IMG/VR virus record: IMGVR_UViG_3300044635_000119
Location: 1-21,323 of that record
DNA length: 21,323 bases
Source of the DNA: a virus
Strand: one strand, 5' to 3'
Part shown: piece after piece, positions 8,318 through 14,827 of the stretch
How the letters are laid out: each line of letters begins with the position of its first letter
How positions within the stretch are numbered: position 1 is the stretch's first letter
The notes under the pieces: model-generated
What the model saw: the letters and a program-made list of their open reading frames with translations, nothing else
Told to the model about the DNA's origin: nothing
Databases searched by the model: none
Position numbers and translations under genes: made by a program

Positions 8318-8632
8318 ATGCCCTACGTAAACAAACCCCGACCCTATAAAAAAGAATATCAACAACAGATTGCACGTGGCGAAAACCCAGATCGTTTAGA
8401 GCGTCAGCGTGCTAGAGAAGGTATAGATAAAAAGAATGCAGACCGAAACAAAGATGGACGTGCTGACGTCCGCGAAGGCAAAGATGTTGCTCACATCAAG
8501 GCACTATCTAAAGGTGGCACAAACGGGAACGGAGTCAAACTTCAAACCCCATCAGCCAATCGCTCGTTCAAACGTGGCTCAAACCACAAAGTTGTATCAG
8601 AAGTAAGCACCAAGGAACGTAAGAAAAAATGA
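8318..8632 (+). CDS. HNH-like small basic protein (104 aa)
   Basis: The start at 8318 (ATG, with AGGAA just upstream) is preferred over an in-frame GTG at 8297 inside the previous gene. The core R-E-G-K-D-V-A-H-I-K-A-L-S-K-G-G-T-N, followed by N-G-V-K-L and S-A-N-R-S-F, resembles the beta-beta-alpha metal fold of HNH nucleases, as seen in many short phage proteins. The cysteine knuckles of larger HNH enzymes are absent, and the D-V-A-H motif is incomplete enough that activity is uncertain. It is strongly basic. It ends in an ATGA overlap with the helicase gene. Confidence 0.72.
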   Translation: MPYVNKPRPYKKEYQQQIARGENPDRLERQRAREGIDKKNADRNKDGRADVREGKDVAHIKALSKGGTNGNGVKLQTPSANRSFKRGSNHKVVSEVSTKERKKK

Positions 8633-10032
8633 ACCTATCAGAATATACGTGGCCTCGTCCCCCGGGGTTCACGCCGTTTGAGCATCAGAAGACAACATCA
8701 GAATTCCTCACAACAAACCGCAAAGCGTTTTGTTTCAACGAGCAGGGTACAGGTAAAACAGCATCGGTCATTTGGGCTGTCGACTACCTCATGACCCTTG
8801 GATTAGTGAAGCGTGTGCTAGTGATCTGCCCTTTGTCGATCATGAAGTCGGCATGGCAAAACGATTTGTTTAAGTTTGCTATTCACCGCACCGTATCAGT
8901 CGCTTATGGAGCCGCACGTAAGCGCAAAGAGATTGTGAGTATGGGTGCTGAATTCGTCATCATTAACTTCGATGGTGTGGGCATCGTCAAGAAAGAAATC
9001 ATGGCGGGTGGGTTTGACCTCATCGTAGTAGATGAAGCGTCAGCCTATAAGAACGCACAGACTGAGCGTTGGAAAGACCTACGAGACCTAACAAAAGTTA
9101 TCAAGGGCTTGTGGATGTTGACCGGTACGCCTGCCGCGCAATCACCTGTGGATGCTTACGGATTGGCAAAGCTTGTGAACCCCAAGGGCGTGTCACCTTT
9201 CTTTGGGCAGTTTCGAGACACAGTGATGATGAAGCTCACTATGTACAAGTGGATACCCAAGCCGACCGCGCAACTAATCGTACACAAAGCGCTTCAACCC
9301 GCCATTCGGTTTGAGAAAGCCGACTGCCTTGATCTGCCGCCTGTTACGTTTGTTGAGCGAGATGCACCATTAACACCGCAGCAGATTAAGTTCTACAACA
9401 TACTGAAGAAGCAGATGCTCATTGAGGCTGCTGGAGAAGAAGTATCAGCCGTTAACGCTGCCGTACAAATCAACAAACTTCTACAGATAGCTGGAGGTGC
9501 GGTGTATACGGATACGAACGAAGTCATTGAGTTCGATGTGAGCAGTAGGCTCAACGTAGTTCAAGAGGTCATTGAAGAGTCAAGCCACAAGGTGCTTGTG
9601 TTTGTTCCGTTTACGCACACCATACAACTGCTTGAAAAGCATTTGCAGAAAAACAACATTACATGCGACGTGATTAACGGCTCGGTTCCTGTAAACAAAC
9701 GCTCGGATATTGTCAAGCAGTTTCAAGAGCAACCGGAACCAAAAGTATTAATCATCCAACCAAAGGCGGCGTCACACGGGTTAACTCTAACTGCCGCCAA
9801 CACAATCATTTGGTATGCTCCATGTACAAGTGTTGAGACGTACTTGCAAGCCAACGCACGTATCGACCGCCCCGGGCAAGTTAATAACATGACTGTGGTA
9901 CACATCAAAGGCAGTCCAATAGAAGCCAAGATGTACACGATGCTTCAAGGCAACATTGACAACCACCAAAAAGTAATTGATTTGTACAAGCAAGAAATTT
10001 CTTCAGAAGATGTTGACAATGTCAAATGTTAG
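8629..10032 (+). CDS. SNF2-like superfamily 2 helicase/ATPase (467 aa)
   Basis: Both RecA-like domains are present. Motif I is N-E-Q-G40-T-G-K-T44; motif II D135-E-A-S; motif III L164-T-G-T-P; motif VI Q407-A-N-A-R411-I-D-R-P-G-Q, where the RPGQ ending is typical of SNF2-type translocases. It is a stand-alone ATPase core with no accessory domain, as in many phage 'DEAD/DEAH box' annotations. A role in remodelling or unwinding DNA during replication or recombination is expected. Its last codons overlap the -35 box and operator (10013-10025) of the next promoter, and the stop TAG (10030-10032) lies within the spacer. An imperfect 14-bp palindrome lies at 9088-9101. Confidence 0.93.
   Translation: MNLSEYTWPRPPGFTPFEHQKTTSEFLTTNRKAFCFNEQGTGKTASVIWAVDYLMTLGLVKRVLVICPLSIMKSAWQNDLFKFAIHRTVSVAYGAARKRKEIVSMGAEFVIINFDGVGIVKKEIMAGGFDLIVVDEASAYKNAQTERWKDLRDLTKVIKGLWMLTGTPAAQSPVDAYGLAKLVNPKGVSPFFGQFRDTVMMKLTMYKWIPKPTAQLIVHKALQPAIRFEKADCLDLPPVTFVERDAPLTPQQIKFYNILKKQMLIEAAGEEVSAVNAAVQINKLLQIAGGAVYTDTNEVIEFDVSSRLNVVQEVIEESSHKVLVFVPFTHTIQLLEKHLQKNNITCDVINGSVPVNKRSDIVKQFQEQPEPKVLIIQPKAASHGLTLTAANTIIWYAPCTSVETYLQANARIDRPGQVNNMTVVHIKGSPIEAKMYTMLQGNIDNHQKVIDLYKQEISSEDVDNVKC
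9088..9101. repeat. CTAAC-N4-GTTAG palindrome family, one mismatch (in CDS)
   Basis: CTAACAAAAGTTAT, one mismatch in the right arm. It lies in the helicase gene and is read as L-T-K-V. Confidence 0.45.
10013..10025. promoter_or_regulatory. Putative operator, TTGAC-N3-GTCAA
   Basis: TTGACAATGTCAA is a perfect 5+3+5 inverted repeat over the -35 box, the same arrangement as at 4040-4052. It is followed by ATGTTAG, which makes CAAATGTTAG, the right-hand 10 bases of the other palindrome family. Confidence 0.6.
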
Positions 10033-10040
10033 TATATAAT
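10013..10040 (+). promoter_or_regulatory. sigma70-like promoter of the primase operon
   Basis: -35 TTGACA (10013-10018), 16-bp spacer, -10 TATAAT (10035-10040): both boxes match consensus. It lies over the last codons and stop of the helicase gene. The transcript should start near 10047, leaving a leader of about 110 nt before the ATG at 10159. Confidence 0.85.
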
Positions 10041-10046
10041 TAGATT

Positions 10047-10137
10047 TGTGTGGCAGTGGTGGGTATCGGGTTAGCGCCGATACAGCCTCTAGTATTAGGA
10101 CGAAACACTGCTTCATGTGAACTGCTACTGTCACACA
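10047..10137 (+). ncRNA. Structured leader RNA of the primase operon
   Basis: TGTGTGGCAGT (10047-10057) can pair with ACTGTCACACA (10127-10137) in an 11-bp stem with one G-U pair. Inside, GTATCGG (10063-10069) pairs perfectly with CCGATAC (10077-10083) around a 7-nt loop, and TCTA/TAGG (10088-10091/10096-10099) can form a small hairpin. A direct repeat ACTGCT (10107-10112, 10121-10126) gives GCAGTG (10053-10058) an alternative perfect partner, CACTGC (10106-10111). The closing stem begins at the predicted 5' end. No known riboswitch or tRNA is recognised; it could be a cis-regulatory leader or a processed small RNA. Confidence 0.55.
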
Positions 10138-10158
10138 CTTAACCATTAGGAGAATTAG

Positions 10159-10584
10159 ATGGACGAAGAAGTCAAGGATAGAGTCACCCCCATGGATTTG
10201 GACAAGCTGACCACAATCTACATCAAGATCAGAGACAAACGTGCCGACAACAAGCGCATGTTTGAAGCTGAAGACAACGATCTCAAAGAGCAGATGGAAG
10301 TGTTAGAAGCACAGATGCTCGATGTATGCAAAGAGATGAATGCCGACAGCATTCGCACCCCACACGGCACAATCATTCGCTCGGTAAAGTCACGGTACTG
10401 GACGAACGATTGGGATTCAATGTACGACTTCATAGAGGAGCATGGTGCATTTGGCCTGTTAGAGAAGAGACTTCATCAAACAAACATGAAGGACTTCCTC
10501 TCTGAGAATCCCACAGTTCTTCCACTTGGTCTCAATGTGGAGAATTCTTATTCCGTGGTAGTTAGACGTTCAAAGGAAAAATGA
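10159..10584 (+). CDS. Coiled-coil phage protein (141 aa)
   Basis: AGGAG (10148-10152) lies 6 nt before the ATG. Residues 12-65 form a charged helix with coiled-coil character (KLTTIYIKIRDKRADNKRMF, then EQMEVLEAQMLDVCKEM). They are followed by a beta segment (RTPHGTIIRSVKSRYWTNDW) and a C-terminal helix-plus-strand (LSENPTVLPLGLNVENSYSV). The layout recalls phage Gp157-like and related recombination accessory proteins, but the family is not established. It is the first gene of the third operon, directly upstream of the candidate ssDNA-binding protein, which favours a replication or recombination role. Function unproven. Confidence 0.78.
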   Translation: MDEEVKDRVTPMDLDKLTTIYIKIRDKRADNKRMFEAEDNDLKEQMEVLEAQMLDVCKEMNADSIRTPHGTIIRSVKSRYWTNDWDSMYDFIEEHGAFGLLEKRLHQTNMKDFLSENPTVLPLGLNVENSYSVVVRRSKEK

Positions 10585-10585
10585 A

Positions 10586-11473
10586 ATGAGTAATCTCACA
10601 ATCATCAACGAAGACTTGCCCGACTTCCTGCAATCAGCAGGTGTTAGCGCACTTACAAAACAACTCGCCGGTAAGACTGGCGTCAAGCGCATCGTGCCCA
10701 AAAACGGAATCTTCCGTAAAACGGTCGGCGGTGAAGAGATGGGCAAGATCAAGGGCAACCTGAACGCCATCATTGTTAACGCATCCCCTGCCGTGGGTCG
10801 TATCTTCTATGCAAAAGCATGGAGTCCTGATGCTGAGCCGACTGCGCCCGACTGCTTCTCTAATGATGGTCGTACGCCTGATGAGGGTTCATCAAACAAA
10901 CAAGCTGAGCGTTGCGATAACTGCACCCAAAACACCAAGGGTTCAGGTATGGGCAACTCAAAAGCTTGCCGCTATTCACGTCGCATTGCGCTCGTGTTAG
11001 AAGAAGACTTCGGTACTTCACTCGAAGGCGAAGTGTATCAAATGAACTTGGCATCCAAGTCATTGTTTGGTGATGGGCATGGCGACAATGCACACACGTT
11101 TGAAAACTATTCAAAGTACTTAGCCAACAACGGCAAGAGCTTGGACTACGTTATTACACAGATCAGCTTCAATGAAGAGAACGACAATCAGTCAGTGTTG
11201 TTCACGCCAACGCGCTTCATCAAGCAAGCTGAGTACGGCGTTACCAGTGAAGTGGCTAAAAAGCCTGACGTGCTGAAGATGGTAGTTATGACACCATACC
11301 AAGCTGACATGGCGGGCAAGCAAGCTAAGCTAGAAGCACCAGCCCCTAAAGCCGCGCCTAAAGCTGAGTCTCCTATTGAGGAGCCGACTAAGCGTGAGAA
11401 GAAAGCCGACCCCAAACCCACAGTTAAGAAAGACCTTGACTCTGTGGTAAAGGCTTGGAGCGAAGAGGAGTAA
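10586..11473 (+). CDS. Putative ssDNA-binding / replication accessory protein (295 aa)
   Basis: AAAGGA (10572-10577) lies 8 nt before the ATG at 10586. The N-terminal 230 residues are a mixed alpha/beta domain with four cysteines, C90, C110, C113 and C128 (APDCFSNDG, RCDNC, KACRYSRR), likely binding a metal. An Ala/Pro/Lys linker (about 245-280) leads to an acidic end, W-S-E-E-E. A folded core, flexible linker and acidic tip are what phage single-stranded DNA-binding proteins show, and proteins of this look occur in phage replication blocks. I infer that role; no OB-fold motif can be proven by eye. It lies 1 nt after the coiled-coil gene and just ahead of an HTH gene and the primase. Confidence 0.75.
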   Translation: MSNLTIINEDLPDFLQSAGVSALTKQLAGKTGVKRIVPKNGIFRKTVGGEEMGKIKGNLNAIIVNASPAVGRIFYAKAWSPDAEPTAPDCFSNDGRTPDEGSSNKQAERCDNCTQNTKGSGMGNSKACRYSRRIALVLEEDFGTSLEGEVYQMNLASKSLFGDGHGDNAHTFENYSKYLANNGKSLDYVITQISFNEENDNQSVLFTPTRFIKQAEYGVTSEVAKKPDVLKMVVMTPYQADMAGKQAKLEAPAPKAAPKAESPIEEPTKREKKADPKPTVKKDLDSVVKAWSEEE

Positions 11474-11477
11474 ACGC

Positions 11478-11726
11478 ATGACCTATGGTTATAGCCAAAG
11501 CTTGGTGTACGCCAACAAAAAAGCAAGTATCAAGTCTTTGGGTGTAGCCTTGGGTCGTGTATGTATTCGTGCAAACATAAGCGTGACCAAGATTGCAGAT
11601 GACTTCGGGGTGACTCGGATGACTATCTACAATTGGTTTAAGGGAGACCGAGAACCGCACTCAAGCTATGCGCAAGCAATTAGCGACTACATCATTCACA
11701 CCAAAGCTCACCAACAATTAAAGTAA
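11478..11726 (+). CDS. Small helix-turn-helix DNA-binding protein (82 aa)
   Basis: AGAGGAG (11464-11470) precedes the ATG at 11478. The segment RANISVTKIADDFGVTRMTI, then YNWFKGDREP, is a classic Cro/CI-type helix-turn-helix (first helix, turn at D-F-G-V, recognition helix T-R-M-T-I-Y-N-W). At 82 residues it is a single domain with no sensor or dimerisation region, like phage Cro-like or transcription accessory proteins. It lies inside the operon driven by the 10013 promoter, so it is a candidate binder of the TTGAC-N3-GTCAA operator or of the 14-bp palindromes; that link is inference only. Confidence 0.82.
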   Translation: MTYGYSQSLVYANKKASIKSLGVALGRVCIRANISVTKIADDFGVTRMTIYNWFKGDREPHSSYAQAISDYIIHTKAHQQLK

Positions 11727-14798: not shown

Positions 14799-14827
14799 AT
14801 CCCCGGCTAATCACTGGGGATTTTTTT
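14799..14827 (+). terminator. Intrinsic terminator of the primase operon
   Basis: ATCCCC (14799-14804) and GGGGAT (14816-14821) form the stem around an 11-nt loop, followed by seven T (14821-14827). The stop codon of the convergent giant gene (14811-14813) lies in the loop. On the minus strand the hairpin is followed by AAAAGGAG instead of a U run, so it should work in one direction only. Confidence 0.8.

Follow-up and report, generated by a model that had tools for sequence, protein, structure and literature searches.

The stretch of viral DNA analyzed here (the window: all 21,323 nucleotides of IMG/VR record IMGVR_UViG_3300044635_000119) raises the question of what a strongly folded RNA does at the very start of a replication operon, and whether it exists for the sake of that operon. 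The intergenic stretch 10033-10158 separates a SNF2-type helicase gene (8629-10032) from a gene for a 141-aa protein at position 10159 and is part of a plus-strand cluster with a DUF927 primase/helicase (Table 1). Nothing else promoter-like was found when positions 9000-11500 were scanned, and the transcript expected from the consensus promoter, which the preliminary description of this locus had correctly picked out, begins at about 10047, exactly the first base of the helix that closes the fold. The PHROG label of the first gene is unlikely for a member of a replication operon and probably is a carried-over misannotation. We find that the folded RNA, hereafter element A, is a real, previously uncatalogued RNA family, carried by many freshwater and Burkholderiales phages, and that it probably is not a regulator dedicated to the replication genes of the window.

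Table 1. Coordinates of the features of the window and of the related modules on other contigs
Feature	Position	Strand	Basis or remark
Sigma-70 consensus promoter, TTGACA-16-TATAAT	10013..10040	+	12/12 consensus match; similar promoter in homologous leaders
Element A, whole structured RNA	10047..10137	+	MFE -37.4 kcal/mol, z -3.99, 0/200 shuffles equal; covariance-model match 74.0 bits, E 1.5e-18, window sequence among those used to build the model
P1, 5' strand, starts at expected +1	10047..10062	+	
P1, 3' strand	10122..10137	+	Covarying helix; 97.8% of cells paired (28 homologues)
P2 hairpin, 7 bp (10063-10069 with 10077-10083), loop L2 GUUAGCG (10070-10076)	10063..10083	+	Covariation
Variable joiner, 22 nt in the window; length in relatives about 22-55 nt, some copies including a hairpin (P3)	10084..10105	+	
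P4 mini-hairpin CAC/GUG (10106-10108 with 10117-10119), loop L4 UGCUUCAU (10109-10116)	10106..10119	+	
Proposed kissing pairing, AGCG with UGCU (10109-10112)	10073..10076	+	Putative tertiary contact
Ribosome-binding site AGGAG	10148..10152	+	Sequence; outside the fold of element A
First operon gene, 141 aa, PHROG 13900 'minor head protein', function uncertain	10159..10584	+	PHROG match
Remaining operon: unknown 295 aa, HTH protein, DUF927 primase/helicase 950 aa, 64 aa	10586..14745	+	
Intrinsic terminator, 3' of operon	14799..14821	+	
Element B, examples	L229:806-1040; L239:4594-4900; L257:655-960	L257 copy reverse	
tRNA-like slot modules	L231:2917-3024; L244:1458-1565; L257:7569-7639; L266:1841-1911; L232:10760-10840	- (all)	

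The preliminary description had proposed a foldable leader RNA, and comparison with shuffled sequences indicates that this was, if anything, an understatement: the longer stretch 10041-10158 has a z-score of -2.66, with none of 200 shuffles folding equally well, and the value is more extreme still for element A itself. Its coordinates stand, as do the perfect 7-bp hairpin, the placement of the ribosome-binding site beyond the closing stem and the guess of about 90 nt (element A spans about 91), whereas the closing stem, put at 11 bp, is in fact 16 bp long, the 11 bp being its outer part. The covariation that had been called for is present. Among 28 homologous leaders, standard pairs fill 97.7% of the pair cells, and double changes affect 11 pairs (53 cells), compared with at most 13 double-change cells in control structures with slid partners, and RNAalifold predicts the identical fold unprompted. 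When 57 copies drawn from every context are aligned, 94.3% of the cells pair, 19 of the 24 pairs show double changes, and 352 double-change cells contrast with at most 121 in slid controls; this alignment was fitted to the covariance model and is biased towards it, a fault from which the MAFFT-based counts are free. P4, a helix of only 3 bp, is constant among near relatives, with compensated versions farther away, namely, CCC/GGG in the second copy of L190, CAU/AUG in L206 and CGC/GCG in L286. The suggested competition between two mutually exclusive folds did not survive: the pairing GCAGTG/CACTGC shows no double changes and has one pair broken in 8 of the 28 leaders, its 3' side lies within an invariant motif, and it cannot form where the P1 sequence differs. 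A self-cleaving hammerhead, prompted by GGACGAAAC in the joiner, was dropped because the joiner is not conserved.

The constancy of the remaining parts is best seen in homologues that were collected blind to the element, through a search with the protein of the 10159-type gene. This search led to 80 viral loci, 66 of which carry element A at the equivalent position; GGGTTAGCGCC and ACTGCTTYATGTGAAC are exactly kept in all 66 of these leaders, and loop L2 is identical in every one. Because the copies found by pattern, described below, were chosen by their constant cores, the claim of constancy rests on these 66 protein-found leaders and on the divergent copies found with the covariance model. 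L4 reads UGCUUYAU, and its UGCU is complementary to the AGCG of L2. In two divergent copies (L203 and L204), one of the L2-L4 pairs, otherwise constant, is switched from A-U to G-C on both sides; two of the four prospective pairs never vary, and only this one co-varies. The switch lends thin support, from these two sequences, to a kissing contact between the loops.

As the preliminary description had anticipated, the RNA falls in no recognized class. Rfam 15 yields no match on the window at the gathering score, and loosening the threshold adds a single chance match of 15.6 bits, located nearby; on the related loci, it finds only tRNA and sRNA-Xcc1, elsewhere in those loci. ARAGORN calls no tRNA in the window, the Rfam tRNA model does not match element A, and a literature search on the core sequences and related descriptions returned nothing relevant. 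In the collection of named phages, no DNA similar to the window was found, and relatives of the downstream protein are less than 30% identical. Caudoviricetes sp. ct7QV12 gives the best short match to the cores there but lacks element A according to the covariance model.

The settings in which element A occurs extend well beyond replication operons. Scanning viral contigs with the two-core pattern recovered at least 119 stretches, many of them without helicase or 10159-type genes. The element lies upstream of terS/terL (L095, L133, L146, L151, L156, L166), between terL and the portal gene (L118, L130) and within long noncoding regions (L125, L137, L162, L174), the gene names here being a reading of translated open reading frames, not profile matches. 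The P1 sequence varies with the setting, and its pairing is preserved. Most copies share the strand of the next gene; in L169 and L190, the neighboring genes lie on the opposite strand. An intrinsic terminator stands directly 3' of the element in the viral contig L139 as well as in L188, L199, L202, L204, L205, L206 and L207. The placement relative to transcription is consistent: among 55 distinct upstream sequences (not independent, many being close relatives), 35 have a -10 box that ends 5-7 nt upstream of P1, whereas most other offsets count about 0-2; the secondary peaks at 0, 11 and 25-26 are consistent with neighboring boxes and with P1 ends placed a few bases off.

Element A was also sought in bacterial genomes. 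A strict pattern has no match there; a looser one recovers 8 contigs in a set of one genome per species (84,980 species), with Vreelandella, Achromobacter, Curvibacter and Variovorax among the genera. The covariance model finds the element in 6 of 401 Curvibacter-family genomes, four of these above 40 bits, query included, and almost nowhere in broader sets drawn from Gammaproteobacteria, Pseudomonadota and Burkholderiales, bacterial matches below about 30 bits being mostly chance-like; the host range is inferred from few genomes. The strong matches reside mostly in prophage-like regions, several with an intrinsic terminator immediately behind them; in Burkholderiales prophages, element A appears as a promoter-RNA-terminator unit. 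Three individual loci deserve mention in their own right. In Curvibacter sp. CHRR-16 (L189:3255-3361, minus strand), a copy lies about 60 nt 5' of a gene for a 781-aa lyase-like protein, next to gyrA; no phage genes are visible there. A prophage-like region of Achromobacter dolens (L190:3705-3904, minus strand) holds two head-to-tail copies that differ in sequence and adjoin lysis genes on the opposite strand. On the contig of the terminator-ended viral copy, sRNA-Xcc1 is also present (L139:6468-6552).

Another facet of the story, seen in related phages, is element B, a conserved hairpin (ACGCAUGGRGAUUG...CAGUCYCCAGCCGUGUUGG) on 65 viral contigs (L222-L282) that is absent from the window's own phage group. 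Its 3' end opens a constant stem slot, GUUGGU...ACCAACA, and many array copies of element A come after element B. In 86 copies of element B, more than 30 clusters of unrelated sequence occupy the slot, by a crude clustering in which some clusters reflect cut-off rules, among them element A, a variant of it (GGUUUAGCUCC...CCUGCUUYAUGG) and tRNA-like domains. The latter score 44-49 bits with the Rfam tRNA model, receive no ARAGORN call and have an anticodon arm that looks abnormal. The slot modules occur singly or in tandem, often 5' of terS/terL, and an A-like module is also found on 15 of the newly retrieved contigs with element B. In some contigs (L093, L133, L156, L166, L180), element A is nested atop the stem of element B instead of standing beside it. 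Arrays of the two elements on another set of contigs (L125, L137, L162, L174, L239, L250) are followed 3' by two further recurring noncoding features, a promoter-driven hairpin that ends in an intrinsic terminator, GCCGUUUACACAUGCG...GUAAGCGGCUUUUU, and a larger motif that starts with CCGUACUCCGCACGNUAGNAAG. A literature search found no description of such a slot array. A speculative reading, possible rather than probable, is that element A represents one cassette in a shuffling repertoire of interchangeable phage RNAs that might act as agents of counter-defense or host takeover.

What, then, is element A for? With moderate confidence, and judging from the arrangement of the sequences, we favor the view that it could be a phage RNA that is autonomous and most likely acts in trans, and that in the window is used as a 5' leader. 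This view draws on the covarying fold and the constant loops, the usual single copy per record, a relocated copy (in G005, below), the terminator-ended copies, those opposite neighboring genes and the -10 box at the 5' edge. Of the two options that had been raised initially, a small RNA with a protected 5' end and a cis-regulatory element, the former would fit best. Element A would function by itself as an RNA, with its two constant loops presented to a component that is conserved in its hosts, Burkholderiales and related bacteria; candidates are an RNA-binding protein, an RNase or RNA polymerase. In the phage of the window, the same module would serve as the leader of the replication operon, capping also the 5' end of the mRNA. 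A gene for a trans-acting small RNA would be expected to have its own promoter and terminator; several copies come with both, but the window copy has no directly adjoining terminator, nor was one found between element A and the operon genes, so that processing would be required to release it as a free species of about 91 nt. It also weighs against an autonomous RNA that most copies share the strand of the next gene.

The main rival of an autonomous RNA is a cis-acting element in the manner of put, whereby the nascent RNA would bind elongating host RNA polymerase and cause terminators to be read through. This reading, drawn by analogy with a known system, we consider unlikely, even though much of the placement described above would suit it: in several phage families, the element marks the +1 of operons and heads those for replication or terminase, the constancy of its loops hints at a host partner that is constant too, and an intrinsic terminator directly follows several copies, with element A, terminator, ribosome-binding site and gene contiguous in L139. 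The copy number argues otherwise. With the covariance model, element A is detected in 37 of 39 virus records, as a single copy in 35 and as an adjacent pair in 2, the count excluding one chance-like match of 22 bits (a second one in G011); this match, like those in G499, G927, G1494 and G1647 (27-29 bits), was rejected. Such near-universal single occurrence implies that the other operons would go unserved by an action of this kind. Of the 15 records that came from the protein search, 12 have the element in the leader, two fragments of 20-22 kb have none, and in G005 it is absent before the 10159-type gene, the single copy being located elsewhere, away from the replication operon, with a -10 box of its own. 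The copies opposite other genes (L169, L190) also speak against read-through, as does the window operon itself, in which no strong plus-strand terminator was found for it to overcome.

A cis-regulator of the replication operon, be it a riboswitch or a protein-controlled leader, as initially envisaged for the primase genes, appears rather improbable. In its favor, the element of the window lies between the operon promoter and the ribosome-binding site, and the 66 leaders have kept it there. However, the ribosome-binding site is outside the fold, no alternative fold involving it or a terminator is conserved, and the conserved bases are found in the loops, not near either of these signals. Furthermore, the same core precedes unrelated genes or none, lies opposite genes or forms a terminator-ended unit, with no fixed gene or pathway downstream, and the remaining 14 of the 80 otherwise homologous leaders manage without it. 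Given that these 14 retain promoter and ribosome-binding site, element A behaves as a module that is either present or absent.

Most of the leaders without element A bear a short hairpin at the transcript start in its stead (L037, L039, L053, L056, L061, L069, L070, L075, L076), such as GTGTGG..CCACAC in L037 and CGTGC..GCACG in L069. This substitution would suit an element that merely stabilizes the 5' end, its stem at +1 shielding phage mRNA from 5'-end-dependent decay, and so would the position of P1 at the expected +1 in many contexts. Nevertheless, shielding as the main function is likewise rather improbable, as it would leave unexplained both the constancy of L2 and L4 and the copies within module arrays behind element B. 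Finally, a feature of the DNA, that is, a palindromic recombination, packaging or replication site, is scarcely credible despite the variable position and the terminase genes often nearby, given that many G-U pairs on the transcribed strand are A-C mismatches on the other, that the complementary strand of 10047-10137 reaches a z-score of only -1.58 against shuffles, and that the placement relative to the promoter is fixed.

An autonomous, probably trans-acting RNA remains our preferred reading. The significance of the element is twofold. Element A adds a well-defined, covarying RNA family to phages with almost no known RNA biology. Moreover, the constancy of the loops in phages with differing hosts points to a target that these hosts conserve, for which the RNA could be used as bait.

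Among known systems, the put RNA of phage HK022, compared here by description, is the closest in placement. In HK022, put RNA attaches while still nascent to the transcribing host polymerase, which then passes terminators, and put is present in both early operons. Element A shares with it a structured RNA right after phage promoters and a presumed direct contact with a host factor, and differs in being nearly always single-copy, in often having its own terminator and in occurring also in arrays and opposite other genes. In general outline, the fold, with a closing stem and two hairpins whose loops touch, is reminiscent of purine-type riboswitches; element A, however, has no conserved junction core or shared expression platform, its joiner is 22-55 nt long, and it has no Rfam match. 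GOLLD and other ornate RNAs of lake-metagenome phages are likewise noncoding RNAs of freshwater phages, sometimes beside tRNAs, but they are far larger, and Rfam finds none of them in the searched loci. Trans-acting phage and prophage RNAs such as C4 of P1/P7 are, in general terms, comparable as small phage RNAs, several copies of element A having their own promoter and terminator; none of them matches it in Rfam, and the constant parts of element A are its loops, which seemingly pair with each other, making an antisense role less likely. If the cassette reading holds, the interchangeable RNA domains in the slot of element B could be likened to the variable protein cassettes of integrons or anti-defense islands, and such arrays, if confirmed, would amount to a variable RNA repertoire of a new type among viruses.
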